A stretch of DNA of 64,000 bases. Origin: Nilaparvata lugens (lineage: Eukaryota; Arthropoda; Insecta; Hemiptera; Delphacidae). The translations under genes and the position numbers were made by a program. The notes below the pieces were generated by a model. It was not told where the DNA came from. It ran no database searches and worked only from the letters and a program-made list of their open reading frames with translations. Every line of letters starts with the position of its first letter. Position 1 is the first letter of the stretch. Location of the stretch: contig NC_052507.1 of NCBI RefSeq assembly GCF_014356525.2, forward strand, positions 49,825,952 through 49,889,951, read 5' to 3'. Below are positions 1-57,540 of the stretch, one piece after another.

Positions 1-796
1 CCATATCCTTCCCAATTGAGATTTCTGAAACATGTTTCCAAGACAGCATTGAATATTTTTTACAAAGGAATGTTGCCTTGTCTTAATCCTCTTCTTACTC
101 CCATGACTTTCTCTTTTCCTCTTTAACCTCGATTTTCATTCTCTCGTAAATGAACTTGAATATTTCTAAGTATTTTCCTCTAATACCAAGTCCATAGAGT
201 GTATCTACTACAGATTTTGTTGTAACGCTATCGAACGCTTTCTCATAATCTATAAATAATAGAAACATTGGGAATTTGTAGTCTTTAGAATTTCTTATCA
301 ATTCCAATAATACAAGCATGTTGTCAAAAGTTGAAAAGTTTTTCTTGAAACCGGTCTGATTCACAGAAGTTGATCTAGTCAAATAGTTGTCTATCCTATA
401 CGTTATAACCGCAATAAACACTTTATATATACTGGATAGAAGACTTATCGGTTGATAGTTCTTTATCTCTTTCCTATCACCTTTCTTGAAAAGGAGTATC
501 AGGCTGGCTTCCAACCATATTTCTGGAATTCTTTCGAATCTAAGGCATATATTGAATAGCTTTGTTAATAGATCTATTACCGTATTTCCGCCTGCTTTCA
601 ATTCTTCATTCGATATTCGATCTGGGCTGCCTGCTTTTCCCTCCTTCAGGTGATCAATCACTCGCTTCACCTCACTTTTAAGAATCGCCGGACACTCCTC
701 ATCCTCACTCTCTCTCTCCTGCTGAACCTCGCCTCCCAAGTCGCCAATGTCGTCATTATAGAGCTTCTGATAGTAATTACAGATTATTTTCAGCAT
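1..796 (-). pseudogene. RTE-type LINE reverse transcriptase fragment
   Basis: This is the fingers and palm part of a non-LTR reverse transcriptase (RT), open from 796 down to 95. Early RT motifs are visible: GSPDRISNEELK, then LLFKKGDRKEIKNYQPISLL, then motif A LLFIDYEKAFDS with its catalytic Asp. Below 95 the protein continues in other frames (RGLRQGNIP, then IFNAVLETCFRNLNW), so there is a frameshift or stop near 45-95 and the element runs past the window edge. The YxDD box would lie outside. The spacing and wording of the motifs fit the RTE clade, whose ORF2 copies RNA into DNA at a nicked target. It overlaps by 20 nt, in another frame, the linker segment at 777-1440. Confidence 0.85.
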
Positions 797-1440
797 TCCA
801 TCTATTTGCCCTCACCTCGACTCCATCCTCATTTCTCATACAAATCATAGTATTTTTGCCAAGTTGCTGTAGCCTATTACATTGTTTGATGCTTTTCCCA
901 AATTTGATAGTTTCTTCTAGATCCGATGTTTTCCTATTGCTTGTCCATTCGTTCCATTTTCTTCTTATAAGCTTTGAGGTTTCGCTAAATTCAATCTTGT
1001 CTCTCCCAAATCGTTTTAATTTTCTTCTTTTCTCCAGTAATTTACCTAGTTCTCTTGGTATTTTCCGTTTCTTGTTCTCCTGTTCATCGCCTAGCATTTG
1101 TCTCGTTCTTTTTAGAGTGTTTGTCAATTTGCTTGTTAAAGCCTCCATATCCTCACATATATGAATAGTTTCTTCATTGAATTTCATTTCTAGTTTCTCC
1201 TCAAAAGCTAAAAGTTTCAAAACATCAGTACTCAGTCTTGTGATTTTTTTCTCATGGTACCTTCTCCGATTTTCTTTTACCCTTATTTCAATTTTAACAG
1301 GTCGGTGATCACTTCCGGTATTTATTTTGTCTTCCATATCTACATCCTGAACAATACATTTTTCATCTATGATGAAAAAATCTATTTCATTTTTAGTCTC
1401 ACCGTCGGGACTTACCCACGTCCATTTTCTTTTTCATTTT
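777..1440 (-). pseudogene. RTE-type LINE endonuclease end and linker to RT
   Basis: From 1440 to about 1340 this strand reads the end of an apurinic-type endonuclease, including WVSPDGETKNEIDFFI. The frame at 1337-777 then opens with GSDHRPVKIEI, which holds the SDH catalytic motif, and continues as the Lys/Glu-rich linker to the RT. A one-base frameshift in an A-rich run near 1405-1415 separates the two. It is the middle of the LINE whose RT lies at 1-796 and whose upstream endonuclease part is at 1487-1699. It is broken by frameshifts, so it cannot make one protein. Confidence 0.75.
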
Positions 1441-7169: not shown

Positions 7170-8162
7170 TTAGGCTCTTCTGTAGGGTTTTACATTAATT
7201 ACGTTTTCCCACCAGTGATTATTGGCGTTCTCAGAATCTTGAATCTTGATAGTATTGTGTTGTGAAACGTCGGTCACTCGATGCGGTCCCGTGTAAAGAT
7301 GAAAGAATTTTTTGGTTAACTTGCCTAGGGCATCTGAAGATTTATGTGCTTTTACCAGTACTTCATCTCCGACTTCATATTTGAATTTCTTTGTAGCCTT
7401 GTCATGATATTTTTTCCTTTGTAGTGCGGATTTGTCTAACCTATTTCGAACCAATTGGTATAAGTTTGGATCAGGTTGACCAGGTTGATTTGGAAACTTG
7501 ATTAGGCTCTGAATGAATGATTCGTTTCTTGTGCCAAATATAATTTCGTGGGGAGTGTATCCGGTACTGTCACTTACACAGTTGTTTATGCAGTGTTCTA
7601 GGAATGGTACATATTTGACCCATTGTTGATGACGGTGACTGCTATATGCCCTCATAAATCTTGAAATCTCTTTCATTCTTCTTTCCACTGGGTTTGCGCT
7701 GGGAGTGTATGCTGAGACTCTTGATGTTTTAATGCTGGCTTGCTCTAAAACTTGTTTCCACTTGGCACTGCAAAAATAGGTTGCATTGTCCGACAATATG
7801 CGCTGTGGTTTACCAACTTCATTGGTCCATCTTTCGGTGATGCATCTGGCTAGTTTTTCACCAGTGATTTCACCAATAGGGAAGAACATTGTATACTTTG
7901 AGAACAAGCAGGTCAAGACAAAAATGAAGCATTTTTGGTGCATAGACTGAGGTAGTGGCCCATAGATGTCGGCTGATATTAATTCAAGTGGTTGTGAAGG
8001 CAAGATAGGTATCATTTCTCCTGCGATGTGAAAACGGTTATGTTTTGTTTTTTGACAGATGTTGCAAGCTCTTATTAACTGTGTAACTTTTTTATTCAAC
8101 CCTTTGAAGTAACAACACGTTTTCAGGGCATGTATTGTTTTCTTTATGCCAAAGTGACCAAT
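7170..8162 (-). pseudogene. Gypsy integrase domain
   Basis: Integrase inserts the cDNA into the host chromosome. The HHCC zinc-binding region spans the break: GHFGIKK lies just downstream of a TGA at about 8160 and CNIC follows at residues 12-15 of the 309-aa frame starting at 8099. The DDE catalytic core is intact by eye: D44 in SADIYGPLP, D104 in LSDNATYF, and E139 in NPVERRMKE, 35 residues apart as expected. The C-terminus has TGPHRV, like the GPF/Y module, and there is no chromodomain. It shares frame with the RNase H segment, so only the TGA separates them. Confidence 0.9.
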
Positions 8163-8903
8163 TCATTCATGTGTCTCCAAAATTACGTCCTTTTCTAGGG
8201 TGTGTGGTATGACTAGACGCCAAAAATCGGAGTTTTTATTGGCCTTATAAAATAAATGGTCGTTGAAGACAGTGTAGCGTTGTAGATACTGGTGTTCTTC
8301 TACTGGAGGGTTGGATAATTTGCGAATGAGATCTGCGATTTTGTTGTCCATTGATTGTGCGCTTTTCAATTTTTCAGATGTGAGGAGTTCGGTGTGCAGG
8401 AGCGGCGATATATTGAAGGGTAATGTCACTGGTTGATCTTCGGCTACATAGCATTGGAATGTCGTCTCATTGGCATAGGTGTCACTTCCTTCTCTGGACA
8501 AGAAATCAGTGGTTTGATTTCGTTTACCTGGCAGGTGAGTGAGTTCCAAATCAAATTCTTGTAACAACAGAAACCATCTGGACAGTCTGTTATTGGTTAA
8601 CTTGGCTGTTTTGAAGAAAGTCAGGTACTTATGGTCCGTGTTAACAAAAATCTTTTGGCCTAACAACAACGTTCTATATTTCTTGCATACTTCGACAATG
8701 CTAAGCAGTTCCTTTTCTGTGACTGTGTACTTCTTCTGGGCTGCATTCATAGTCTTGCTAAAAAATGCTATGACTCCTTTTTCTCCTTTCTCATCATATT
8801 GAAAAATTTCCGCACCCAAGGCATAATCCGATGCGTCAACATTTATATGAAAAGGTTGGTTTAAATTTGGATGATTCAACATAACAGCTTTCAAAAAAAG
8901 CAT
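8163..8903 (-). pseudogene. Gypsy RNase H and connection domain
   Basis: A 246-aa segment of the pol polyprotein. RNase H removes the RNA strand during reverse transcription. Catalytic positions are visible as NVDASDYALGA, the Glu in YTVTEKELL and the Asp in NTDHK. DFLSRE marks the usual end of the domain. Its upstream junction with RT is a one-base expansion in a run of T near 8903, which shifts frame. Its downstream end is a TGA at the start of the integrase zinc finger. Both breaks look like decay rather than regulated signals. Confidence 0.9.
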
Positions 8904-9168
8904 CCTTCAACTGGTTGAAAATTTCATCTTCTTTGAGCCCCCATGTCCATGGTTTAGATGATGATAGAACGTGACTCAGTTGTGCTGTATAGTGAGACAT
9001 CTGTTTATTGAAGCGACGGTAGAATTATAGGAAACCAATAAAACGTTGAAGCTGTTTACGGCTTGATGGAGATGGAAAGTTTTTTATAGCTGCTAACTTG
9101 TCAATGTCTTGCATGATACCTTTATCAGTTATGATGTGCCCGAGGTATTTGACCTTCTTGGCAAAAAA
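8904..9168 (-). pseudogene. Gypsy RT thumb segment with stop codons
   Basis: Reading on in the protease-RT frame beyond the TAA at 9166-9168 gives FFAKKVKYLGH and then LQRFIGFL, typical of the RT region after the YVDD box. A second TAA interrupts it near 9028. The frame then runs to the T-run frameshift near 8903. Homology therefore continues through two nonsense mutations. Confidence 0.8.
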
Positions 9169-10707
9169 TTAACATTTTGATAATTTTAGTTTCATACCAC
9201 ATTTTATTAATCTACCGAATACTACATCAAGGTGTTGAATATGCTCTGCCACACTCTGTGATGAAATAATTGCATCGTCAACGTAAAGAGCGCAAAAATC
9301 TGAAATGTCTTCACCAATTGACTGTCTTAGGCAGCGTATAAATATAGCCTTTGCGTTTCTAATTCCAAAGGCAAGTCGGGTGAACCTGAGATTTCGGCCA
9401 TTGAAGAGGAAGGACAGGTAATCCCGAGACTCTTCTGCCACTTGTACCTGCCAGTATCCAGCGCTGAGGTCGACGGTGGAGTATATGGTCTTGCCATGGA
9501 ACGTCTGCAACACCTGATCGATCTGGGCGGGAGCTTCACGGTCGTCATCGAGAATCATGTTCAGCTGGCGGGCGTCAAGACAGAGTCGGGTGGAGCCGTC
9601 CTTCTTCGAAACGCAGGTAATAGGCAAACTATAATGCGAGGTGGATGGTTCGATAATGCCTAGTCTTTCCATCCTATCTATTTCTGCAGCTGCTGCTTGA
9701 CGATGAGCGAAGGGGATGGGATAAGATTTTCTATAATAAGACTCATGTGGTTTGACTTCCAATTTGCACTGAAAATGGTTTGCCAATCCCGGCTGTTCTG
9801 AAAATACTGCACGATTTTTTATGAACATTTCTTTCATGGATTGTTTGATTGCGAGCCCACATTCAGAATTGTTATCAATTTCATTCAACAATTTTTTCAT
9901 CAAAATGTCAGTTTCATCTGGTGTTTCATTTTCCGAACTATAGTCATCCACTGAATCATGATTTATTATCTCGCTCTCCTCACTTTGTTTATATTTCATC
10001 CTGTATTCTTTTTCAGGAATGTAATCTTCAACGATGTGGTATCTCACTACTTTTACATCTCCCGCATTGACCTTTAATACTATCTGAGTATTGATACTAA
10101 TCCGGTTGCTATTGTCGATTAATTGCAGTTCGAGATTTTTGAAATCTATATTTGGATTATAGTGGGCTAAGAAATCAGCACCAATAATAATGTGTGGTCC
10201 ATTTGCAGGCAATACCAGGAAGGAGTATGGGAAACACTTTCCTTTGACTTGGATCTCCAGGAGGCATTGTTTAGATATTTGGAGGCGACGTCCTGGTGTG
10301 ACACCTGATAGGTAGGTTGATGTTAATGGTAATGTGGCTATTTCTGTTATGTTTTTTAGGCGGGAATATGAGTCATTCTGGATGAGACTGACTTGTGATC
10401 CAGTATCTATGAGAGCTTTGAATTGTAGGCTGGCTATTTGTATAGTAATATAGGTTTGAAAATGTTTGTGTATTTCTTGAATGCTGGAGTTTTCTTCTTC
10501 TAGCAAGGTTTCTCTGATGTTATTATATAGCGCAGTAGGACGTGTAGATTCTTTTCCTGTATCTGGATCGGTGAGGTTGTCTAGATTTTCCATTTTATTC
10601 GTTTTTTCAGGTTGGGTAGGCTTAAACCGTATAGAGCGGCAACGGCGGTAGATTCCTCTGAGTTTCGGTTTCTTGCCTTGGACTATTTCGACTGGCGGGG
10701 GTGACAT
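9169..10707 (-). pseudogene. Gypsy protease and reverse transcriptase
   Basis: A 512-aa open frame. The aspartic protease has FKALIDTGSQVSLI (active site about residues 101-103) and the flap-side IIIGADFL (about 172-179). RT follows: PIPFAHRQAAAAEIDRM, VSKKDGSTRLCLDARQLN, motif A YSTVDLSAGYWQV and the active site LYVDDAII (about 474-481). It stops at a TAA where family members continue. The frame is the same as gag and is open from the gag stop at 10810 to the Met at 10707, so pol is probably made as a gag extension rather than from that Met. Expected role: processing the polyprotein and copying the genomic RNA. Confidence 0.92.
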
Positions 10708-10800
10708 ATCAGTATTTTTGATTGGCGGTTGTTCTTCTGCTAATTGATTATCATTTCTTTCAGTGTGTAAACAAGTGATGGGCGACTGTGGCGGGTGATT

Positions 10801-10815
10801 TCCATATAGTCAGGT
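10801..10815 (-). promoter_or_regulatory. UGA-CUA at gag/pol junction, possible readthrough site
   Basis: The gag frame ends ACC TGA CTA TAT on the minus strand, and the same frame stays open through 33 codons into the protease-RT ORF. UGA followed by CUA is a context known to favour stop-codon readthrough. The alternative is an ordinary nonsense mutation in a fused gag-pol. Confidence 0.45.
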
Positions 10816-12864
10816 TTTCAGCGATGTTGAGGACCCTTGTGTTTTCTCAGCCATATCCGATTTTCTTCCCTGGTTTTCGTTGGACGTCGTTTGATGCTGA
10901 TTTGCGCTCGCATTACCCATCCGGTTATAATTGTTGTTCCTGCTATGTGTGGCGTTGTTGGAGTATGGTTTATGGGGTTGGTTTATGCGGTCTCGTCCGT
11001 CATGATAGTAGGCGTTTCTCCGGTTTGGATCAGACTGCTGGTTGTGGTTCTGGAAATTCCTCCTATTTTCTGGTTGGTTTTCTTTGTTTAGTCGCTGTTG
11101 AGAATTCGTGTTGCGGTCCTGGTTATTAGCAGAATTAAATGGACGGCGGGCATTAGAAAAAGGGGAAGTATTTTGTTGGGGTTGGGGATCTTGATGCGGA
11201 TGTTCTTGTCGCACAGTGAAGTTATAATCTTCGCGATGCACTGCTTGGATTTCATGGAGATGATTTTCCAGTTCCTTTATAGTCTTAACATGACTGGTCG
11301 CTAGTGCCATCTGTACTGGGTAAGGCAGCTTCCGGATAATAATCTGAGTAAGTGCTAACTCGGCGAAAGGTGTGTCCAGTTGTGAATTTTGGTACCTGAT
11401 GTTTGATACGAAGGCGGTGCATGTCTGGCCACTTCGAGATGAATATTTGCAGGATATGATATCAGATAGTATGACCCGCTGTCGATCTTGTCCCCAATAT
11501 TGCTCCAGGAAGGCATCTATGAATTCGGATAAACTATTAAATTCGGCGGCACGTCCGTGAAGGAAAAGTAAGGGCTCTCCGGGCAACAGAGTGAATAATT
11601 TGAATTTCCATATGGGCCAGGGTGTGGGGGTAAGCTCTTGAACAGATCTCAGTTGTTCGACGAAGGGTTTTGAGGGCATGGACGCTGGGGTGTCATCAAA
11701 ATGTCCCAGGTTTTGAAAAATTGTGGTGGTGCTGTATGACTCTGAGGGCGATGACAGTTCTAGGTTGGTCCGAGAGTGACTTATGCGGGTTTCCATCTGA
11801 GTGATGCGGGTATCCGTCTGCTCAAATCTTTTCCGGACCTCGGCATCGGCACTCTTCCTTTGCTCGGCGGCAGTGTCACATCGTCTATGTAGGTCGCTGT
11901 ATTGTATAGTCAAACTGTCCACCTGAGAGCTGATAGTAGTTTGCTTTTCACTCAGGGTGCTAACATGGCTCTTCAAATTTGTTATATTGGTCGTAACTGG
12001 TTCAAGTTGCCTTTTAACTCGCCGTATAATGTCCTCATGTTCATTTTGACACGCAGAGATATGTTCATTGACTTTGGCCTGCATGCTTTGTGTTATCTGC
12101 TCTCCTGCTTTGATGCAATGCTGTTTTGCTTGATCAACTACTTTCTCTTTCAGAGTATCCATCTCTACACGTATGTGTTCTTTTAAGGTGACTTCGACAT
12201 TGATTACCTTCATATGCATATCTTGTGATATCTGATCCAATCGGTTATTTGTTTCTACAATGGATTTATCCAGATGCTCGGTTAAATCTTTGATGGTATT
12301 ATCTGTATCATGGAATGCTCTGTCCATTCGCTGACTCAACTTCTCCAAACCCTGTTCATTTACCTTCTTTACTTCTTGAACTTCCTTTTTCAATTCTTCC
12401 TTTGTTTGGTCGCTTTTTTTACTTAGATTGTTTATTGCTTCATTTGTTTGTTCGCTTTTTTCTTTTAATTCTTCCTTTGTTTGGTCGCTTTTTTTACTTA
12501 AATTGTCCATCATCTTGGTTATCGCTTTCAGGAGGGTGTCCGTATCCATTGCGGAAGCGAGCGTATGGCTGATGGTTATCCGCTGGTTCTTCATCTGAGC
12601 GACGGTACAAGAAATGGGAGTTCCTGTCTCGGGGGCGGCATTGTCGACCGGATGTTCTTCTGATACTTCGTCCTCTGGCTCTCGGGCTATCAATGGATCT
12701 TCCAATAGAATGCAGCTCTCCTCCACTTGCGTCGACGACAAGTCATCCAGTATATGTGGGTGGAAATCGGCGGATGCAGTGGCAGATGCGGATGGCGGTG
12801 AACGATCGGGTGAGATGTCCTCGGGGTCTGATAGACTTGGATTGGCTGGGTCGTTTCCTGCCAT
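10810..12864 (-). CDS. gag: Gypsy gag polyprotein
   Basis: Start chosen at the Met of MAGNDPANPS (12864), giving 684 aa. The frame is open upstream to 12981, but that extension is a hydrophobic stretch unlike a Gag N-terminus. Residues 1-90 are acidic and Pro/Ser-rich. About 110-370 is a long heptad-like coiled coil holding a 25-residue tandem duplication (NLSKKSDQTKEEL at 121-133 and 146-158). About 395-545 resembles a capsid domain (WPIWKFKLFTLLPGEP, then ALTQIIIRKLPYPVQ). The last 130 residues are rich in Asn, Gln and Arg and probably bind RNA; there is no CCHC knuckle. Gag forms the particle that packages element RNA. This frame is intact, unlike pol. Confidence 0.88.
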   Translation of the reverse strand: MAGNDPANPSLSDPEDISPDRSPPSASATASADFHPHILDDLSSTQVEESCILLEDPLIAREPEDEVSEEHPVDNAAPETGTPISCTVAQMKNQRITISHTLASAMDTDTLLKAITKMMDNLSKKSDQTKEELKEKSEQTNEAINNLSKKSDQTKEELKKEVQEVKKVNEQGLEKLSQRMDRAFHDTDNTIKDLTEHLDKSIVETNNRLDQISQDMHMKVINVEVTLKEHIRVEMDTLKEKVVDQAKQHCIKAGEQITQSMQAKVNEHISACQNEHEDIIRRVKRQLEPVTTNITNLKSHVSTLSEKQTTISSQVDSLTIQYSDLHRRCDTAAEQRKSADAEVRKRFEQTDTRITQMETRISHSRTNLELSSPSESYSTTTIFQNLGHFDDTPASMPSKPFVEQLRSVQELTPTPWPIWKFKLFTLLPGEPLLFLHGRAAEFNSLSEFIDAFLEQYWGQDRQRVILSDIISCKYSSRSGQTCTAFVSNIRYQNSQLDTPFAELALTQIIIRKLPYPVQMALATSHVKTIKELENHLHEIQAVHREDYNFTVRQEHPHQDPQPQQNTSPFSNARRPFNSANNQDRNTNSQQRLNKENQPENRRNFQNHNQQSDPNRRNAYYHDGRDRINQPHKPYSNNATHSRNNNYNRMGNASANQHQTTSNENQGRKSDMAEKTQGSSTSLKT

Positions 12865-12981
12865 GGTTTGCGGAAAAATAACGCGACGAAAAGGTGTAGT
12901 GAATAAAAAACGTGAAAGGGTTGATGTGATATACAAAATAATTGAATAAAAGATCCAAGTGAAATCGTTATAGCTTTGCAA

Positions 12982-13679
12982 TGAATGAAATACAGAAAAA
13001 GTGATTTAACAATGTGTTCAGTGATGAAGTGAATCAATTTAGCAATATCTTTGACATAAAATGATAATAACATAAAGGATACACAATGGATAATGCGATA
13101 ACGAAGGTACGCCTCTTATAATTTATTATTATTATTATTATGAATATTTTACTCTTATACGTTCTTGCCGCAATTCTATATAGGGCTAGTATTCTTCGCA
13201 AAATTTTATATAAAAGCAGCAGTGTTCTGCTTGAATTATTCCACAATATATCTGTGATTTAATTTGGCTTCCCTTTTCATGCCTTAAAAATTTAAAAAAA
13301 ATGTAAATAACTTCAATCTTCTTTTCCGTAAATTTCTATAGACTGCTTTGCTATAGACCTAATGTTCTTAAAACAATATGACCTTTCTTATGGTATTTCT
13401 TATACCTATGACTTATAATATGACCAATTTTCGAATAACACAATAATGAAATTCTGAGTTCGATTTTTTCTCTAAAAAATTCATCAATCGATAAATTTCT
13501 TTTCCGTTCAAAAATTGGGTATGGCACGTCTTGCTATTTTATATAACAGTGAACAGTTAATATTAAATTTGAAGAAATTCACAACCATGAATTTTTCAAA
13601 AAATTTTCCCGTTGTCAGTGCTATAGTATACTGAGCAACTAAATAATCCTCGTAGTCGATTATCCACCTCTTCAATGCC
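12982..13679 (-). other. Gypsy element 5' leader
   Basis: About 0.7 kb between the primer site and gag. AT-rich, with a (TTA)n run near 13123-13140. It would be the 5' untranslated leader with packaging signals. Short frames here are not credible genes. Confidence 0.6.
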
Positions 13680-40436: not shown

Positions 40437-40843
40437 TCAATGCAGCGGTAAAGATTGCCGATTGACAAAGCAGCAGCAGAGTGAAACTTCATTGAATCTT
40501 ATACAATCTTTTATGTACATGCATAATCCATCACATTTATTCTGTTTAGTGTACTTATTTATTGCCGTATATCCAGGAATGTTGAGAATGAACGGCATAT
40601 CTGCAGTCAACCAGGTCTCCGTTAATATTATAATGTGAATATCAGTTTTCAATTCATTGAGGCAGCAAATAAACTGATCGAAATTAGCATTCAAACTACG
40701 TATATTCATAGACATAATATTGAAACACTCAGCATCTTTATTTCTGTCCTCGTGAAAGTGATAGTTTAAATAATCGTCTGTATAAATGCATCTGTTTCAT
40801 TTTCTGTTTCTAAAATATTCAGAGCTTCTTCAGTGTCACTCAT
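40437..40843 (-). pseudogene. LINE endonuclease, N-terminal part (third ORF)
   Basis: The frame begins at ATGAGTGAC (40843), inside the stop of the helicase frame. After one frameshift near 40785 it reads FNIMSMNIRSLNANFDQF and DIHIIILTETWLTADMPF, the first strands of an AP-type endonuclease as in CR1/Jockey-type ORF2, with the metal-binding Glu in LTETWL. A leader of about 45 residues before the domain is normal for these ORFs, which supports 40843 as the true start. It is cut off after KDCIRFNE; the rest of the endonuclease and the reverse transcriptase are missing. The enzyme would nick target DNA to prime reverse transcription. Confidence 0.8.
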
Positions 40844-42685
40844 AACTTATATCATCAGGTCCACTTCTCTTTTCCTTGTTCCATTCAACAAGCCCCTCAC
40901 TATCTATGAATATAAGTTTCTTAATTAGTTTGTCCACAGCATCATCTACTAGACTGTTTGTTAAATACCTGAAAGTTTCAGTGTGTCTAGACAAAGCAAC
41001 AATCGCATGGGGCATGCTGTTATAGATTCCATTCTCCTTGTACTTAAAATTCTGATTATAAAAACATTTTTATGAGTTAGCCCTTGTGCTTCATGGATTG
41101 TGTGAAGTGCAACATCCTCTCTTCACTTTATAGTATCACCCACCATAAGTTTTTCCTATTGAGTGAATGTCAATATCAAAGTGTCGGGTTGTATCAGATG
41201 GTATTCCCCATTTCTGTAAGTAGGCAGAATTGAGATAGCTCTTTCATTAAGCGTCGTAATATTTACATAGACAGTGGAAAGGACAAAACAAACATCGATA
41301 GGACATCTACGAGTTACCGTTTGTTTTGTAAAAGGTTCGCAGAATTTTGAAATGTTATGCCATCTTGTGGCATAATTACTTCTCTCAATATAGGGTATTT
41401 GGTTTGCGTCACCAACTTCAATTATTTTAGAGGCCTTACTCAAGTTAGCAATAAAACCGATGTAACCCGCATGCATAAGTAGAGCTTTATCAATAAAAAC
41501 TCTAACGTATGTTTTATTCTGATTATGATTTATTATATATGAGCCAACTGTCCTGTAATCAAGCTTAAGACGATTACAATGTTTTCGACCATACCTTTCA
41601 ATGACAGTTTCACGGATTGCTTTAATACCTGCCCGTGTTTGAGTGAGTACTAGATCCTTGCCAGGCTCATGATGCGAGGCTATAAAGTAAGATTTACCAC
41701 AGCCGGGAACACTGTCATACCATTTTATTTAAGGAAGTTTATACTCATGAAGAGTTATTCTATTTATAGTTTTTATTAATTCGCTATTCAGCATAAGTGT
41801 AGTATTACGTGTGACTAAAACATATCGTTCTTTAGTAGAGAATTTTAAAGTATCCTCTTGAAATTCTACGTAACTTCCACCCAGCTCCAAGCAATATCCC
41901 ATTCGGTATTTAGAGTTTGTTTTGAATAGGAATATTCAAATTATTATCATAGATGTTCATATTGTTATTCAGGACGCTTATTAGTTCATCACCTGATATT
42001 GACATGTTTCTATGCGTGATCCTAAGAAGAATATTTTTATATATTTTAGCATTTTCGTTATCAGTGTTTTGAAGTAGGGTCCGTAATTCAATCATAGAGT
42101 TCATGAATGCTTCACGTTTATTATGACCTTCAAAGAATCCTCCAGGGTACTCAACTCCCGGACTATCAGATAGGTTAGGTATATTAAGAGAATTAATTTC
42201 ACAATAACCTCGATAATGAAAAATAAACTTCAAATCTCTAGCTCCTATGACAGTACTCAAGAGTTCAGTGGCAGGGATATCAAAATAAGTTTCACCCACA
42301 TTGTTAAAAGAATCAATTCCTATAATCAAAGGGTGATTGAATCTACTCCAATCATTCTTTCTATTCAAAAGATCAATAAGTACCCCATTTTCACCATCAT
42401 TTAATATGGAAATAGGAATGTTTCAATCAGAAAACAAAACTCTTATACAATTAGAATCCCGTAACACATTCAGGTGATTCCATTCTTCAAGAGAGAAATA
42501 TTTTTTATTTCTAAGCAGAGAGAGAGACCTTCGGATGTTTTAATACTATTTCCTATTTTTGTAAAAGATATCATAACATCAACCCTCTCACCAAAATTAT
42601 AAACCAGACTTATCTTAATTTTACCAGTATTAGTTGTTACGTAGAAACTATCAATTTTGTTAAGGATGGAATTTAAAGTAATCAT
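40836..42685 (-). pseudogene. Viral-type SF1 RNA helicase ORF carried by a LINE
   Basis: Reading from the Met at 42685, about 615 codons end at TGA 40836-40838. The first 300 residues are unrecognised. Then come the superfamily 1 helicase motifs of alphavirus-like RNA viruses in order: motif I YDSVPGCGKS, motif II VFIDKALLMHAG, motif III EVGDANQIPYIERS, IV-like RRCPIDV, motif V TIHEAQGLT and motif VI VALSRHT. The family unwinds RNA using NTP. It is broken by about three frameshifts (near 42525, 41920, 41055) and in-frame stops (near 42425, 41730, 41155). Motif II has Lys where Glu is expected. It lies 77 nt after a LINE ORF1 and overlaps the LINE endonuclease ORF by 8 nt, so it looks like a middle cistron. 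The alternative is an integrated virus fragment. Confidence 0.8.
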
Positions 42686-42761
42686 TTTGTGTTGGGTTGA
42701 TTGCTTGATTTTACTATCACTATCATTTCTATTTATCCTCAGTATATTGAATATTTTTCTT

Positions 42762-43935
42762 TCAGATTACATAATCAGTTCTATCAATTATTTGTTGTAA
42801 CGCTTTTTGATAGGAAGGGCACTCTCTGTCACCTACTTTGTGATCGAAAGCTTTTTTATCATTGCGGCAATTTAAACATGAGGGCTTTTTGTTCTTATTA
42901 GGGCACTCTTTAACATCATGTCCTGTAGTGGAACAGTGAGCACAGGTGTTTTGTGCTTGAGTGCAATGCTTACTGATATGTCCAATTTTTTGGCACTTGA
43001 AGCAACGAGAGACGGCAACATAGTCTCCAACTCGGCACACCCTCCAATAAATACCAATCCGCGATTTGTTAATAAATTCTTTTCTTAATTCACCAGTGCA
43101 CTCCACAACCCAATGCAAGGTGTTTTTGTTTTTCGGTCCTATTTCAAAAATCGGCCTGAAGTTTTTCAAGAAAATTTCCCTACTCAATGACAATGACTCG
43201 AGATTTCTCTCAAACACATTGTTTGCCAATTCAGCAGCAGTTATATCTGTAGCGACGTGATACAGAATTATTCTTGGCAATTTGGATTGTGGCTCGCTTA
43301 CCTTTATGTTTGGATGCTGCAGGACATTATCGCCCAGAACATTTTCTTCATTGGCCCTTGGGTAAAGCACTAACAGCGTTCCATTTATTTTTGCTGGCTT
43401 CAGGATGATCACATTCACCTTGGGCGACAGCTTCTTGGTCCGGGGCGGAGACTCCCTGGCTGCAGCAGTGGAGGCAGCACTCGATAATGTAGAAGGTGCG
43501 GTCCTCTTCTTTGGCAGTTGCACGGCCTCAGCAAATGAGATCGGCTTGTTGTGGCTTTTTGCAATTTCACTTGCAAGTTTATTCACACTCTGCTCCAGAG
43601 TGTGAATTTTTCCAAACATTTCCGCGTTTTTTTCTTGTATATTTTGCTTAACATCTATTCCTTCGATACTGATGTTAAGTTCATTGCACACATTTAAAAA
43701 CGAATCATAGTCCTCTCTGGATACTTTTTTTCACGATAATTTCACTCCCCCATTTTAGAAATCTCTCTTGTATATTTTTAAGAGAACGTACCTCGAAACG
43801 TATTCCGCTATCGTTTTTACTTTTCGGTGGCAATTCGGGAGGCATATTCATTCCATCCTTTTCCTCTTCTTCCTCGTATTCGAGCTGCGCGGATGGTGGT
43901 AGTTTTGTTGGCGTATTTATTGGCGAATGGATCAT
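42762..43935 (-). pseudogene. LINE ORF1 (gag-like) with three zinc knuckles
   Basis: Starts at Met 43935. The first segment (76 aa, with an acidic EYEEEEEKDG stretch) is joined to the 309-aa frame by a one-base shift in an A-run at about 43723-43731. The C-terminal half shows the pattern of insect LINE ORF1 proteins: a fold with [14 protein letters not shown] and [15 protein letters not shown], then CCHC knuckles [14 protein letters not shown] and [14 protein letters not shown], and a third Cys cluster beginning CLNC. Such proteins coat LINE RNA. Stop at 42762; the helicase frame starts 77 nt later. It has only one visible break, so it is less damaged than its neighbours. Confidence 0.85.
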
Positions 43936-44369
43936 CTTAAGGCTGATAGATCCAAAACACCATAATTTATTGATAGTTTGATAAATGTTTTTTGAAGAAA
44001 CGGAACCTAGTTTTTAAAGAGAGCAATGTTCAAACGAAAAATTTGGTGACACACTTCTCACTCTGAAAGAAACTTTGAGTAGTTTTCACTATGAAAAACT
44101 GCTGAGTAGACTGCTGGTTGTTGGTGTTGACACCAGTTGTTCCACTTTCACTTCTAATACCAGTCTACACTGATTATTCGCTACGATCTGCACTCTACGA
44201 AGGTCTGATTACAACTGAAAGATAGCAAACATTGATTTTCCATCTGGTTGATGTTGGTTATTGATTTACTATGCCGAATCAGGATCATGATTTGTCTGAG
44301 GACATTAATTTATGAAACACTTCAAGTTGACGATTTTATTAGTTTTCCTCTGCAATATAGTAATACAAC
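43936..44369 (-). other. Probable 5' untranslated region of the helicase LINE
   Basis: About 400 bp upstream of ORF1 with no frame. It separates two head-to-head LINE pieces, so the boundary between their 5' sequences cannot be placed. Confidence 0.4.
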
Positions 44370-45190
44370 TGTATAAATATAATTCATATAAACATTAGAA
44401 GTATTTGGAAAAACTTCGATCAATTCGTTTATTATCTAAGTAATAGCCAAATAAAATTTGACTTAATCGTTTTAACTGGAACTGTACGAAACTGTACTGA
44501 CGATTCTGAATTTGATTTTGATTCACCAGGCTATAATAATGTTAATGCTGCATATGAATTCTCAAAAAGTGATGGTCTGTGTATTTTTAAACATGAATTG
44601 GTAGTTTTTAATTTAAAGGAAATTATGATTGATAATGTGGATCCTCTGAGTTTCAGTTGCAATATTGATGGTTATGACCTCACAGTAATCGCTTCGTACC
44701 GTTCTCCTTCATAATCTATAAATAACTTCATAACTAGTCTGGATTATCATTTGAAATATCCAAAAAATCGACGTGATGTTGTAATCATTGGTGATATGAA
44801 CTTGAATATTTTAGATAATACCAATTTTCACAAATGAATATCTTAGTGTTATGCATTTAAATGGGTATGAATCCTACATAAATAAACCCACAAGATTACA
44901 TAATTGTATAGATAATGTATTTTTAAAACAAGATACTGTCAATGATGGTGAGGTTGTTGGTGCAATACTAGAAACATCCATAGCCTACCATTATTCTACT
45001 CCTCTACATATTAATAGAGCCAAGCAAAGAAAAAACCAAGTCCTATAAGTAATGTCACTAAAATGAATATGTACAGTATCATTTCCGACCTAGAGAATGA
45101 AACATCGGAAGATATTTACAGCGGAGCTGATGATATTGATTCCCTGGTTGACACATTCATTAACAGGTTGACTTACTATATAGAGAAGCG
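44370..45190 (+). pseudogene. LINE endonuclease fragment, opposite strand
   Basis: Reads INIRSIWKNFDQF, FDLIVLTGT, SPGYNNVNAAYEFSKSDGLC, VIASYRSPS, DVVIIGDMNLNIL (GDxN motif), HLNGYESYINKPTR and then CIDNVFLK. This is most of an AP-type endonuclease of the same general kind as 40437-40843. Stops at about 44712 and 44835 and a Glu-to-Gly-like change in LTGT make it inactive. The following DIDSLVDTFINRLTYYIEKR resembles the linker to RT. It is not preceded by a helicase frame. Confidence 0.75.
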
Positions 45191-47980
45191 TTTTTTCATT
45201 GTCAAAATTCCCAATCAATCTTTTCCAATTCGCATTGCGGATATCTATTGTGTTACAGATGCTACTGTTATTTTGACGCTTCACTATTCTGTATTAATTC
45301 CATCGAAATTCAAAGAGAATAATCCACATCATTGTATGTGGATGATGAGAGAATATCCAACACACCTACGCGTCAAATTCAAATTCCGAAAGATCTTCAA
45401 CATTACAGCCAGCTCATTTCACAATGAATAGCCGTTATAATCACAAATACCAACAGGAGAACGAAATATATTTTGGTAGAACATGAGAATTTTGATGAGA
45501 TAAATTTTGAATCACTGTCTGCTCCATTAGAGAGCAAATACTTCTGTCATTATCTGTGACCAACTCAATTCAAACCGGCTCCTATCTCTCACTACTAAAA
45601 TTGTGATGTACAGAATAGTGGCACAGAGGCTGATTAATTTATTATTTTAGATAGTAAAATACCAGCCTTTTCTAGCGCCAAGCTATAAAACATAGTCCAA
45701 TTTTGGCTGAATGATTCTTGCTATGAACAACTCACATATTGGATGCTATCAGGAGAACCAGACTCAATTCCAATATCGTTAAATCAGAGCATCGCTGAAG
45801 TAACGTTCTCTCCTGTAGGTAAGTCCCTAACTGCCTTCTACCATGCGAAAGCTGCACACTGCAATAGCCACAATCTGTGAGCATTGGTAGAATGAGAAAC
45901 ACTAAACTTATTCATAGGGAATGCTGGAAGTTAAAAGTGAGTATCAATATACTGTGTGGTTAATTTCAGATCGTTGTGTATCAATCGATTTTTAGAAGTG
46001 AGAGATTAGTAACTATTTGTGGTTGTGTTTTTATGTTGCATTTTCTTATGTATGTGCTCTGGAGTCTGGAGCCTAATTCCATCATTAGTTTTCTCATCAA
46101 TTTTTCGAAAAATGTTATATTTCTCGTAACATCTACCTTCTTCAACTGAGTCCAGAGCTGGAAGTATTCGATATGATTTTTCAAATTAATGTAGTTGATT
46201 CCGCTTGTAAATTTATCCATTTTTAAAAATGTTGCCTCTTGATCTATGTTATATTATTCAAGGTACAACCAGTGTGAGAAAAGTAGAAGTAGACATCTTC
46301 TATCCCCTATGAGATTTTTGACCCCTTCACAATATTGCTTTGTCCCACGACTTTGACAGATCTTTTCATATCAAGTGCTTTTGTATCTAAAGGCATGGTG
46401 CTTCATCGAAATATCTCGCAACTCCCATTGTTTTCAATTCAACCCCCATTCTCTAGACTCTTGCTCAACTGGCCTCAGCTTCTCAAGTTCCATGCCATCC
46501 TGAGTATGTATATTTTTCCATATGAAATCAGTATCAACCACTTAGTCACACATTTTAGTCCAGTCAAATGGTCGTTTTTCAGGAAACACCCCCGAAAGAA
46601 TTTCCTCGACTGTTCTATATGTATTTTGGTGCGCAGAATTTGAATCTGAAATTCGCTGACACGCCAGAGCGCGGCTTCACCCTCAAAACCCCCAAAAACC
46701 CCTAAAATTTTGGACTATTTTAATTCTTCCATTTAATTACGAAAATTTCTAGGTCTTGGAGAAAAATCATTCTCTACAAAGTTAAAGATGATAGGATTCC
46801 AATAAATTGGGTGGTTGCGTAGGATCCCACCATTCTTGGTTTCGGAGCTACGAATTTTCAAAAAAGGGGTATTTTTAAGGGGTTTCCAAAATTATGCAAA
46901 CCTACCACTTCTACCCTATACAACTTGAATATTTTTCTAGTATAGATAAAAAACACATATCACGTGGAAGAACATTCAATTTTGAACAGGATTCCTTGGA
47001 TTTTTCAAATTTAATAGTGTGGAGAGGGGGAATACACCCAAAAATAGAAAATCATGTCCTACAGCCAAAATACAAGTTGTTCATTATAATATCATTTCAA
47101 GGCCTCCCTGACAAAAAAATACATATTTCAGCTGAAATAATCTCACAAGGGTTATTTTCTATGAGAATCGCCCCTCAGAAACATTTAATTTCTGTATTTC
47201 CCAGTGGAAAGGTATGTCATGAGGAGACGTCAAGGATCAAACACTCATAACTTTTGACAGAATGATCAGATCTCCTCTTACTACAGCTCATTCTTGTAAG
47301 CTCGTCAAGGCGGTTCAAAATCATGCATCATAACTGAAATTTGATGGAAAAAATTCCTCCTCTAGTGTATTTTAGCCCATATTTAAATACACAGAAAAAT
47401 GACCAATTTCTAAACAATTATACTTGCTCTATTTCCATGATCTTTACTCAGTGATTGTTCATTTTTGACATTCATGGTGTTCATTTTAAATATAATTGAA
47501 TTCAATTCCTTCTTATAATTACGCGTAAAATCAATGCTTCAAATACGATAATCAGTTCTGTCACTTTGATGTAAATCTCACTATACTAACCATTACTCAA
47601 AAACTAATCTTACTGTTAATGGTCAATGTCATTGTCACTATTCAAAGATTGATTATCTAATATTTTCAAATTGAAATTTGAAAATATTATATTTCTATCC
47701 TCGCTACGTAATATTCATTCTCATAATGTATTCGATGATCTGCACAACAAAGATCGTTGATCACACTTGTATCTCGAGTATAGACAACGGGAGAAAACTC
47801 TTTAGATAAAATTCAGTGAAAAATTATACTACTGAAACCTTTTGTCGTATCCAGGTGGAGATAGAGATGAGGCTTAATAATTAATGTGATCAGTCTCGTT
47901 TGCTCAAGTTAATCGCCTCATCAATACATGCCCATGTTTTAGCTGGGCAGCGTTTAATCCGAAATCCCTACACATCCTAT
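45191..47980. other. Unrecognised DNA
   Basis: A 118-aa frame at 46894-47250 and others have no known domain. 46680-46890 has AACCCCCAAAAACCCC and AAAAGGGGTATTTTTAAGG, reminiscent of the interior of the 21672-23876 element. No gene supported. Confidence 0.4.
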
Positions 47981-53461: not shown

Positions 53462-55514
53462 GAACTGCCTCCAAGTACATATATTTACAAATCTACTAGA
53501 ATAATATAAACATTCGTGTAAAATGAAGAATAACTAATCCATCCATCAACAGTATTGGAAGAAGTAAGCTCTCACATCAGTACAGAAATGCCTCCAAGTT
53601 AATATTTTCGACAAATCTACTAGTATAATATAGACATTCATGTAAAATGGAGAATAACAAATCCATTCATCAGCAGTATTAAAATAAGTAAGCTCTCACA
53701 TCAGTACAGAACTGCCTCCAAGTAAATATTTTTGACAAATCTACCAGAAGAATATACACATTTGTGTAAAATGAAGAATAACAGATCAATCTATCAACAA
53801 TATTGAAAGAAGAAAGCTCTCACATCAGTACAGAACTGTCTCCAAATGAATATTTTCGACAAATCTACTGGAATAATATAGACATTCATGTAAATTGAAG
53901 AATAACAAATCCATCCATCTACAGTATTGGAAGAAGTAAGCTCTCACATCAGTACAGAACAGCCTCCAAGTAAATATTTTTGACAAATCTACGAAAATAA
54001 TAAATATACATGCAAGTAGTATTAATTCAATGTGCAGTGATAATTAAGTGTAATATTCAACTATAATTTGGAGTTTCAATTTTTCTAAATTCAAAACTTG
54101 CATCCCATATTTATTTTTGGACGAAAGTTGAGCTTGAACTTTTTACAGAAGAAACATAACTTATTTTTTTGGAAATGTAATCAAAATTTAGGAATGTAAT
54201 AGATTTGGGCCAAGCCTGTTGTTCCTTCCCAATCATATGTATATGATTTGTTATTGTTTCCACGAATAAATAAATAATAGTATGAAGAATGACAAATCCA
54301 TCCATCAACAGCATTGAAAGAAGTAAGCTCTCACATCAGTACAGAACTGCCTTCAAGTAAATATTTTTGACAAATCTACAACAAGAATATAGACATTCGT
54401 GTAAAATGAAGAATAACAAATCAATCCATCAACAGTATTGAAAGAAGTAAGCTCTCACATCAGTACAGAACTGCCTCCATGTAAATATTTTTGACAAATC
54501 TACTGGAATAATATAGAAATTCGTGTAAAATGAAGAATAACAAATCCATCCATCAACAGTATTGAAAGGAGTAAGCTCTCAAATCAGTACAGAAGTGCCC
54601 CAAGTACATATTTTTCACAAATCTATGAGAATGAAATAGACATTCAAGTGAAATGAAGAATAACAAATCCATCCATGAAAAGTATCGGAAGAAGTGAGCC
54701 TCCACATAAGTATTGAACTGCCTCCAAGTACATATTTTTGACAAATCTACTAGAATAATATAGACATTCGTGTAAAATGAAGAATAACTAATCCATCCAA
54801 CAACAGTATTGAAAGAAGTAAGCTCTCACATCAGTATAGAACTGCCTCCAAGTAAATATTTTTGACAAATCTACTAGAATAATATAGACATTCATGTAAA
54901 ATGGAGAATAACAAATCCATCCATCAACAGTATTAAAAGAAGTAAGCTCTCACATCAGTACAGAACTGCCTCCAAGTAAATATTTTGACAAATCTACTAG
55001 AAGAATATATACATTCGTGTAAAATGAAGAATAACAAATCCATCCATCAACAGTATTGAAAGAAGTAAGCTCTCACATCAGTACAGAACTGCCTCCAAGT
55101 GAATATTTTCGACAAATCTACTAGAATAATATAGACATTCGTGTAAAATGAAGAACAACAAATCCATCCATCAACAGTATTGAAAGAAGTGAGCTCTCAC
55201 ATCAAAACAGAACTGCCTCCAAGTAAATATTTTTGTCTAATCTACTAGAATAATAGACATTCAAGTTAATTGAAGAATAACAAATCCATCCATCAACAGT
55301 ATTGAAAGAAGTTAGCTCTCACATCAGTACAGAACTGCCTCCAAGTAAATATTCTCGACCAATCTACTAGAATAATATGCTAGTAATATGCAGACATTCA
55401 TGTAAAATGGAGAATAACAAATCCATTCATCAGCAGTATTAAAAGAAGTAAGCTCTCACATCAGTACAGAACTGCCTCCAAGTAAATATTTTTGACAAAT
55501 CTACCAGAAGAATA
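53462..55514 (+). repeat. 124-bp satellite array
   Basis: About sixteen tandem units of 122-124 bp, each beginning GAACTGCCTCCAAGTAAATA and ending AGCTCTCACATCAGTACA. Units differ by a few per cent to perhaps 15 per cent. Some variants recur at a distance: CTACCAGAAGAATA and ATGGAGAATAAC...TCAGCAGTATTAAAA occur in units 2-3 and again in the last two units. The array ends in an assembly gap, so its real length is unknown. Confidence 0.95.
54005..54277 (+). mobile_element. LINE 3' tail inserted in the satellite
   Basis: About 270 bp unlike the satellite interrupts one unit and ends GAATAAATAAATAATAG, a LINE-like short-repeat tail. It looks like a 5'-truncated insertion. No coding sequence. Confidence 0.55.
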
Positions 55515-55614
55515 NNNNNNNNNNNNNNNNNNNNNNNNNNNNNNNNNNNNNNNNNNNNNNNNNNNNNNNNNNNNNNNNNNNNNNNNNNNNNNNNNNNNNN
55601 NNNNNNNNNNNNNN
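55515..55614. other. Assembly gap (100 N)
   Basis: Exactly 100 N, a conventional gap of unknown size between the satellite and the R1-like LINE. Confidence 0.99.
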
Positions 55615-55616
55615 GT

Positions 55617-57540
55617 CTCATTCAGCCTCTAGCTCGAGCAGTGGACGTGGGGACAGTGCAGCATGCTGTTCTCCGTACTAGCGAGAGAAAGGCTCCAGGC
55701 ATCGACGGAGTCTTGCCAGAGTTCTTGATCAAGTCCTCACCGATGATAGCTGAACCGCTGGCCATGTTATTCAGCTTGTTATTCAGCTTGAGGCTGTCCT
55801 ACTTCCCGAACTCTTGGAAGAAGGGTCGCTTGATCGTGATTCCAAAGAAGGAGGGGGTGGACATGAGCAACCTCAAAAGTCTCAGATCAATCACTCTGGT
55901 CTCTGTGCCTGGGAAAGTGTTTGAGCGGGTGATCCATGGGTTTCTCATGGATCATCTCTCCACCAATGACCCTCTAAGCCGATTCCAGTTTGGATTCGTA
56001 CCAGGCAGATCAACGGCTTATGCTGTAGAGTTCGTTCTTTGGTGAATTCGCCGTCGAGAGACTTGGTACATGCTAGGCCTTTTCATCAACATTGCCGGTG
56101 CCTTTGACAACTTGAACTGGGGGGTTCTCGTTGACAGGTTGACAGATTTCGGTATACCACAGCATCTCATTGCAATCCTGCACAGTTACCTGGAAGAGAG
56201 AAGTGTTGACCTACACCTTAAAACCTTCTCTGTTTCTGAACCAGTGACCAAAGGCTGCCTCCAGGGGTAGGTTCTCGGTCCCTTACTTTGGAATCTGGTG
56301 TTGGACACCTTCCTGAGGATTGTCTTTGGTGATAGCACACAGGCAATTGCCTACACAGATGATGGTCTGGTCTTGATACCAGGGAACTCTCGGAGGGAAC
56401 TGGAGAAGAGATCGGCCAAAGTCTTGCGAAAAATATCTGACTGGTGCGATGTTAACAGGCTAAGCTTGAGCTGGGCAAAGACAGTCGCCGTCTGCTTCGC
56501 TGAGAGTACTGCTCAGTCCGGCAGGCGGCCGGCACCAGGGTACCGGGGCGTGTCGGTGGCTTCTAGGCCTCCTGTGGTAAGATATGGAGGTAGATCGGTC
56601 CAGGTTGTACGGCATACCACATATCTTGGTGTGGTTCTTGATGACAAGCTAAACTTTGTAGAGCACGCTAAGATGGTCGCTGAGAAATCTCGCAGCATCC
56701 TTCTTCAACTAAAGGGCCTAGCCAGCAAGACCTATGGCTTAAAGAATGTGAGCCTCAAACACATCTACAAAGCAGTCTCAGAACCCATCCTGATATGAGC
56801 CGCTGAGGTGTGGGCCAGAAATGGTTTACACTCCCACACCCGAAGAGCACTTCGCTCTGCACAAAGAGACTCACTAATCTGGTCACTGAGAGCCTACCAT
56901 ACTGCTGCAGGAGATGCTGTCTGCATGGTGGCTGGTGTTTTACCCATGGATTTGCTTGTCGAGGAGCGGGTTGCCCTCCGTGCTGTGAAACGAGGTGAGC
57001 CTGTCATTGCGATAGGTTCCCGAGTGAAGCTGGTGCAGCAGCCCGATGGCAAATACAGCGGGGAAGCTGGATTGCGTCCTTTTTGCAAAGCACAGGCAAG
57101 ACGTGCACTTCGGAGCATATCGCTCGCCACATGGCAACAGCTTTGGGATGACTCAACACAGGGAGAGATTACTCGTACTTTCTTCCCCCATGTCAGTGGA
57201 ACATCTGTCTGCGAGGGGAGAGATCACGATCTAGTGCAATTCCTTACAGTCACGGCGCCTTCAATAGTAGGCTTGCAGACCTCGGTCAGGTGGAGGATGG
57301 CCTCTGCACCATGTGTGGTGTGCCAGATACCACCATGCATGCCCTGAGGAGCTGCTGGAGGAATACTCTGGTATGGCAGCAACTCCTGTGCACTCTGGGT
57401 TGTGAAACCCTCCCAGAGGCTATAAATCTACGGCATCTGGTGACCCCAAGGGCCATTTGTCCTTTTAGGGTCTCTTGTAAGGAATCTGCGCAGGTATGAC
57501 TGGTGGAGTGAGCTGGCAACAGAGGTGTGGGAGGAAGGAA
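55617..57540 (+). pseudogene. R1-like LINE reverse transcriptase
   Basis: The 5' part is lost in the gap. The frame reads RKAPGIDGVLPEFL, WKKGRLIVIPKKEG, FQFGFVPGRSTAYAVEF, motif A FINIAGAFDNLNW, VTKGCLQG, VLGPLLWN, active site AIAYTDDGLVLI, and HTTYLGVVLDDKLNF. The C-terminal zinc knuckle CTMCGVPDTTMHALRSC follows after a frameshift near 57250. Domain order and wording fit the R1 clade. It is dead: stops at 56043-56045, 56268-56270 and 56796-56798, the frameshift, and Asn in place of the first catalytic Asp of motif A. Higher GC than the surrounding DNA suggests a TE with its own codon bias. The frame ends near 57500. Confidence 0.9.

Follow-up and report, generated by a model that had tools for sequence, protein, structure and literature searches.

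Most LINEs have been described as encoding one or two proteins. A virus-type SF1 helicase (SF1H) has been reported at the C-terminus of ORF2 in R1/TRAS LINEs of moths in the consulted part of Lazareva et al. (2015; PMC4686597), so the reports of such domains in R1-type LINEs that the sequence-only reading of this DNA had mentioned are real. According to the consulted sections of Morozov, Lazareva & Solovyev (2017; PMC5563155), SF1H ORFs lie just before, or overlap, the Jockey-type ORF2 in N. lugens, other Hemiptera and Orthoptera; these sections mention "dozens of sequences" in N. lugens, describe transcripts of the SF1H ORFs and argue for repeated helicase recruitment by LINEs. A separate helicase ORF ahead of the endonuclease ORF, which the sequence-only reading had taken for a different architecture, had thus already been seen in this species. 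The helicase ORF is called "ORF1" there, and the same sections make no mention of a zinc-knuckle ORF1 upstream of it: their main text uses the terms "CCHC" and "knuckle" a single time each, where it speaks of LINE ORF1s in general, and never uses "ORF3". Antiviral roles are discussed in the consulted part of Morozov et al. (2019; PMC6338049). The literature searched, which left most subscription journals outside its scope, yielded no other work on a three-cistron helicase architecture. The link between the helicase and LINEs has been known since 2017, and what is added here is the three-gene layout and the selection acting on the helicase.

The window, that is, the whole analysed stretch of 64,000 nucleotides, lies on C4 of the 1.085-Gb genome of Nilaparvata lugens (brown planthopper) and contains a decayed, 3′-truncated member of a 6.8-kb Jockey-type LINE of this species. 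The Jockey group label is based on the domain content and on the consulted part of Morozov et al. for N. lugens. The features of the copy are as follows; its span reaches slightly beyond the 5′ limit that had been assigned to it from the letters alone.

40479–44220, minus strand: decayed LINE copy of family A that begins (5′) at 44220 and has lost its 3′ part beyond 40479 (blastn of L016 1110–4952, 95.5–96.6% in two blocks)
43936–44220, minus strand: 5′ untranslated leader, from the element 5′ end to the ORF1 ATG
42762–43935, minus strand: broken ORF1 with coiled coil, RRM-like part and three zinc knuckles; 105 nt are deleted near 43377 (domains read from L016 and relatives)
42822–43007, minus strand: zinc-knuckle region of ORF1, approximate (zf-CCHC at residues 242–258 of 42762–43730; knuckles two and three by eye)
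42762–42772, minus strand: ORF1/helicase overlap of 11 nt, in which the start codon is retained and the following codon is a stop in the window copy
40836–42772, minus strand: ORF2, virus-type SF1 helicase, with stops and frameshifts
41156–41728, minus strand: helicase core, an open frame in the window copy, with Walker A GKS and Walker B DK (Pfam Viral_helicase1, E 7.3e-18, and translation)
40836–40843, minus strand: helicase/ORF3 overlap ATGAGTGA of 8 nt, identical in 20/20 fetched copies
40479–40843, minus strand: first part of ORF3 (endonuclease), frameshifted and truncated (the full-length ORF3 of L016 matches Exo_endo_phos and RVT_1)

The minus-strand succession that had been read from the letters, an ORF1 with zinc knuckles, an SF1 helicase and the start of an endonuclease ORF, was borne out by the Pfam match of the helicase core and by that of ORF1 (zf-CCHC, 21 bits, cut-off 20.8), where three knuckles can be seen by eye. 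The endonuclease fragment of the window alone gave no Pfam match and was recognised via the full-length ORF3. The copy is dead: helicase codon 2 is a stop, there are frameshifts, Walker B has changed from DE to DK, ORF1 has lost 105 nt, and nothing remains 3′ of the early endonuclease. Private substitutions amount to 89 of 3729 aligned bases (2.39%), compared with 0.00–0.95% in 20 other copies.

Remains of other elements were also seen in the window. Endonuclease-like and other LINE-type fragments adjoin the element on the opposite strand (44364–45431, plus strand; by eye, with no Pfam match). An LTR-retrotransposon-like set at 7170–13005 (minus strand) consists of a 731-aa coiled-coil gag-like ORF, a protease–RT ORF and an integrase ORF, with an RNase H-like stretch between ORFs that was recognised by eye. 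RT pieces of high G+C content from a different non-LTR element, which has undetermined bases at its start, occupy 55452–57347 (plus strand; RVT_1 in 56271–56798), and a piece of a further RT-bearing element lies at 95–1433 (minus strand; RVT_1 in 95–811, E 1.7e-9).

Searching the genome with the helicase gave 1341 first-look candidates, 68 of which were scored and 17 of these 68 were full-length and stop-free, and the endonuclease part gave 398 first-look candidates, 40 of them scored. Twenty copies were fetched beside that of the window. Further copies in the order ORF1–helicase–endonuclease–RT, which the sequence-only reading had proposed to look for, turned out to be abundant, and its view of the helicase as a cistron of its own between ORF1 and the endonuclease–RT held in many copies as well as in several diverged families. 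In the better-preserved copies, ORF1 (coiled coil, RRM-like part, zinc knuckles) is followed by a 644-aa ORF2 with the SF1 helicase at its end and then by the endonuclease–RT ORF3. All three frames are open over their full length in L016 (426, 644 and 983 aa) and L028, and L010 has open ORF2 and ORF3 with a shorter ORF1 frame. The helicase start codon lies within the last codons of ORF1, and the string forming this 11-nt overlap was present in 15/20 copies, the remaining five lacking the 5′ part that would hold it; the 8-nt overlap, where ORF3 starts within the end of the helicase ORF, was present in 20/20. Copies with a preserved 5′ end begin at, or near, TCAGTCGTAATC, which we take to be Inr-like. 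The 5′ ends are variable and the 3′ ends carry short TTGAA-type tails; among the nine copies having both ends, a clear target-site duplication was seen in one (L028). The helicase ORFs of C4306 and C5:71482847 match 100% over all 649 residues, reflecting either very recent spread or a duplicated assembly contig. L029 and L030 had been considered as "old" copies (85–89%), but were rejected as such, being frameshifted members of the same family.

In ORF3 (P0003), Exo_endo_phos (43–228) and RVT_1 (535–790) were found in one ORF, and one Pfam scan of this protein detected neither an RNase H family after the RT at E 1e-3 nor a helicase match. The zf-CCHC scores of ORF1 lie near the cut-off in L016 (19.6 bits) and P0034 (21.7 bits) as in the window copy, and a low-confidence predicted model of ORF1 (pTM 0.33) found tandem-RRM chains as its best matches (E 6.9e-5). 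The middle ORF was confirmed by profile as a member of the viral helicase family (PF01443, 5.7e-37, residues 358–609; 6.5e-35 and 1.8e-41 for families B and C). A protein search, in which scoring covered the 8000 candidates with the most words in common, revealed at least 26 helicase relatives. Motifs I, II, III, V and VI are kept in 26/27 aligned sequences, P0026 lacking the stretch that bears motifs I and II; consequently, the earlier claim that all SF1 motifs are there applies to the relatives and fails for the window copy with its Walker B DK. Among relatives of 31–81% identity, many positions of the helicase do not vary at all. The viral affinity of the helicase was judged from Pfam, from PDB sequences and from a comparison of folds; in IMG/VR, 63 stretches fitted a pattern for viral relatives and none was confirmed.

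The same arrangement was read in the DNA of diverged families. The helicase of family B (L031) is 51% identical and its overlaps are 11 and 8 nt, that of family C (L032) is 45% identical with overlaps of 14 and 8 nt, and each of the two has a frameshift in ORF3; with L038, which has another helicase (47% identical) at the same position, three relatives in this genome with helicases 45–51% identical retain the cistron order. In the decayed L033 (family D), ORF1 still adjoins the helicase. For L033, a fusion of the helicase with a distant RT was considered and rejected, since at L033:988–7401 the RT (787-aa open frame) belongs to a nested, unrelated LINE with a 1.9-kb duplication on its flanks (98% identity). 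Likewise, helicase P0005 and RT P0054 were rejected as parts of one 3495-base contig, because both cannot fit on it. The protein search with ORF1 yielded 18 relatives, and LOC120351051 (Nilaparvata lugens) is a close one. Four putative ORF1–helicase pairs among the relatives were recognised by a common source and equal-sized contigs; in these pairs and L016, an overlap of exactly 11 nt is compatible with both the ORF1 C-terminus and the helicase N-terminus; 4-residue windows drawn at random from these ORF1s allowed an overlap in 0/1500 trials. The diverged helicases found are those of one family and give no proof of more than one capture, so the repeated recruitment by LINEs suggested in the sequence-only reading goes further than these data.

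Pooled pN/pS in the open copies was 0.19 for ORF1 (7 copies), 0.23 for the helicase (6 copies) and 0.17 for ORF3 (5 copies), values that are somewhat biased by the choice of open copies and leave out the misaligned L018 (ORF1) and L020 (ORF3) of unequal length. Among 21 copies including that of the window, helicase changes seen once were near neutral (66 nonsynonymous, 16 synonymous and 4 stops; 2.62 nonsynonymous per synonymous change expected), whereas those found in at least three copies numbered 12 and 20, respectively (Fisher p 2.8e-5). The same pattern was observed for ORF3 (86:30 once-seen versus 25:36 shared, p 2.0e-5). The contrast was weaker for ORF1 (39:29 versus 5:14, p 0.02) because its private ratio is already below the neutral 2.5. 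Changes found in exactly two copies were set aside (one nonsynonymous and one synonymous in ORF1; four, one and a stop in the helicase; ten and four in ORF3), and the p values serve as a guide only, since the copies share history. The shared changes indicate that the helicase is under purifying selection about as strong as that on the RT.

The pairing of ORF1 and helicase is not universal. Using 75 helicase matches and 38 rows of family-A-like ORF1 matches, 22/38 of the latter had a scored helicase match just downstream, 18 of them at one constant offset. For 10 of the 16 ORF1 matches without a scored helicase the downstream DNA was fetched. Four of the ten contained a whole-length helicase region (L036, L038, L039 and L042), three of these with frameshifts or early stops. 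In another three (L034, L040 and L043), one common in-frame deletion has removed helicase residues from about 256 to 602, and an open ORF2 of 288–293 aa with intact junctions is left, L043 also lacking part of ORF3; L035 has a different, out-of-frame helicase deletion. Measured against the conditions under which the sequence-only reading would have fallen, the outcome was mixed: the order recurs widely, but two near-identical copies of a relative (family E; L037 and L041) have in the middle slot a 79-aa ORF (L037:113–352) with a hydrophobic C-terminal stretch, which overlaps ORF1 and ORF3 by 11 nt each. Neither hhalign (probability 0.2%) nor BLASTP (E 0.62) supported a helicase remnant in this ORF, and among 500 shuffles its best score was equalled or exceeded by 80 and its mean score by 22. 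The core-deleted form and family E cut against a simple "essential helicase".

In RT trees, family E grouped with A and B, and C was placed elsewhere. A single clade made up of the A, B and C RTs plus two close rows was rejected by the AU test (p-AU 4.6e-5); these two rows near A and B were added after the first tree and may or may not come with a helicase. Thus, either certain lineages have lost the helicase, or the ORF1–helicase module was joined to different RTs. For seven paired elements, the ORF1 tree has the same two supported groups as the helicase tree, and neither resolves the rest. As a tentative idea, which we consider rather doubtful, ORF1 and helicase could form an exchangeable front module paired with different endonuclease–RT lineages, in an overlapping-cistron relay whose middle slot holds the helicase or another small protein; such a module, if true, would mean virus-like modular evolution inside LINEs.

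The locus is best explained as one copy of a three-cistron Jockey-group LINE, probably autonomous and active in the recent past, with a coating ORF1, a helicase ORF2 and a nicking and reverse-transcribing ORF3, a reading to which we assign a probability of roughly 0.6. The order of the cistrons, their overlaps, their domain identities and the purifying selection on the helicase in propagating lineages are matters of observation. ORF1 would coat the element RNA, ORF2 would supply an SF1 helicase related to virga-like (tobamovirus-like) replicase helicases, and ORF3 would nick the target and reverse-transcribe. Because stop and start codons overlap at both junctions, ORF2 and ORF3 may be translated by termination–reinitiation, a mechanism cited for LINE ORF2 in the consulted part of PMC5563155. 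The helicase might clear structure from, or strip RNA off, the element RNA or the RNA–DNA hybrid during reverse transcription, and among its putative roles this unwinding was ranked first and silencing suppression second. Not every copy requires the helicase core in cis; since the core-deleted form has multiplied, the helicase can probably be supplied in trans, and a protein that is under selection in propagating lineages yet absent from spreading copies suits a diffusible factor helping in trans.

A separate cistron that is dispensable in cis would fit a diffusible silencing suppressor as well, and the helicase could have been kept mainly to counter the small-RNA silencing (siRNA or piRNA) of the element and not as a replication motor. 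As reported in the consulted part of PMC4686597, the SF1H of moth TRAS moderately complemented a silencing-suppressor-deficient plant virus in N. benthamiana, a result that the authors did not regard as unequivocal, and the tobamovirus helicase domain is itself a suppressor. The SF1 motifs are retained in nearly every aligned sequence, but motif conservation alone cannot tell a motor from a suppressor, and we regard suppression as the unlikelier main reason for keeping the helicase. Alternatively, the middle slot might serve above all to carry translation over from ORF1 to ORF3, as a bridge whose frame must stay open with the helicase as a tolerated passenger. The 79-aa ORF of family E, without detectable similarity to the helicase and overlapping both neighbours, and the end-to-end open ORF2 of the core-deleted copies would suit a bridge; however, a bridge needs no conserved protein, yet many residues are invariant even among distant helicases and the shared changes are mainly synonymous, which makes this improbable. 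Taken by itself, the window copy could even pass for a single LINE copy into which an endogenous viral element had happened to insert between two cistrons; this is refuted by the many candidate loci, the same helicase/ORF3 junction in every fetched copy and the same order in diverged families, and its probability is negligible. The three-cistron LINE would represent an element with near-identical recent copies, in a tractable insect, that has a third, virus-type enzyme under selection at about the level of the RT, and the natural series of helicase present, core deleted in frame and slot taken by another ORF makes the use of a viral helicase to a retrotransposon directly testable.

Compared with the virga-like replicase helicase of ToMV, a tobamovirus (PDB 3vkw), the LINE protein is similar in fold and motifs across ORF2 residues 205–640, but stands outside any polyprotein with methyltransferase and RdRp. 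The TRAS (R1 clade) LINEs of Lepidoptera likewise have a virus-type SF1 helicase in an insect LINE; as described in the consulted part of Lazareva et al. (2015), it is the C-terminal domain of their endonuclease–RT ORF2, whereas here it is a separate protein and ORF3 has no match to it. The closest are the Jockey-type LINEs of Morozov et al. (2017), which, in the sections consulted, come from the same species and encode the SF1H in a distinct ORF that immediately precedes or overlaps the ORF of an endonuclease with a Jockey-type RT. Comparison by description shows that in their detailed contig the helicase ORF overlaps ORF2 by 2 nt, while the overlaps found here are 11 (or 14) and 8 nt, and that the helicase here occupies the middle of three cistrons and is preceded by a distinct ORF1 with zinc knuckles.
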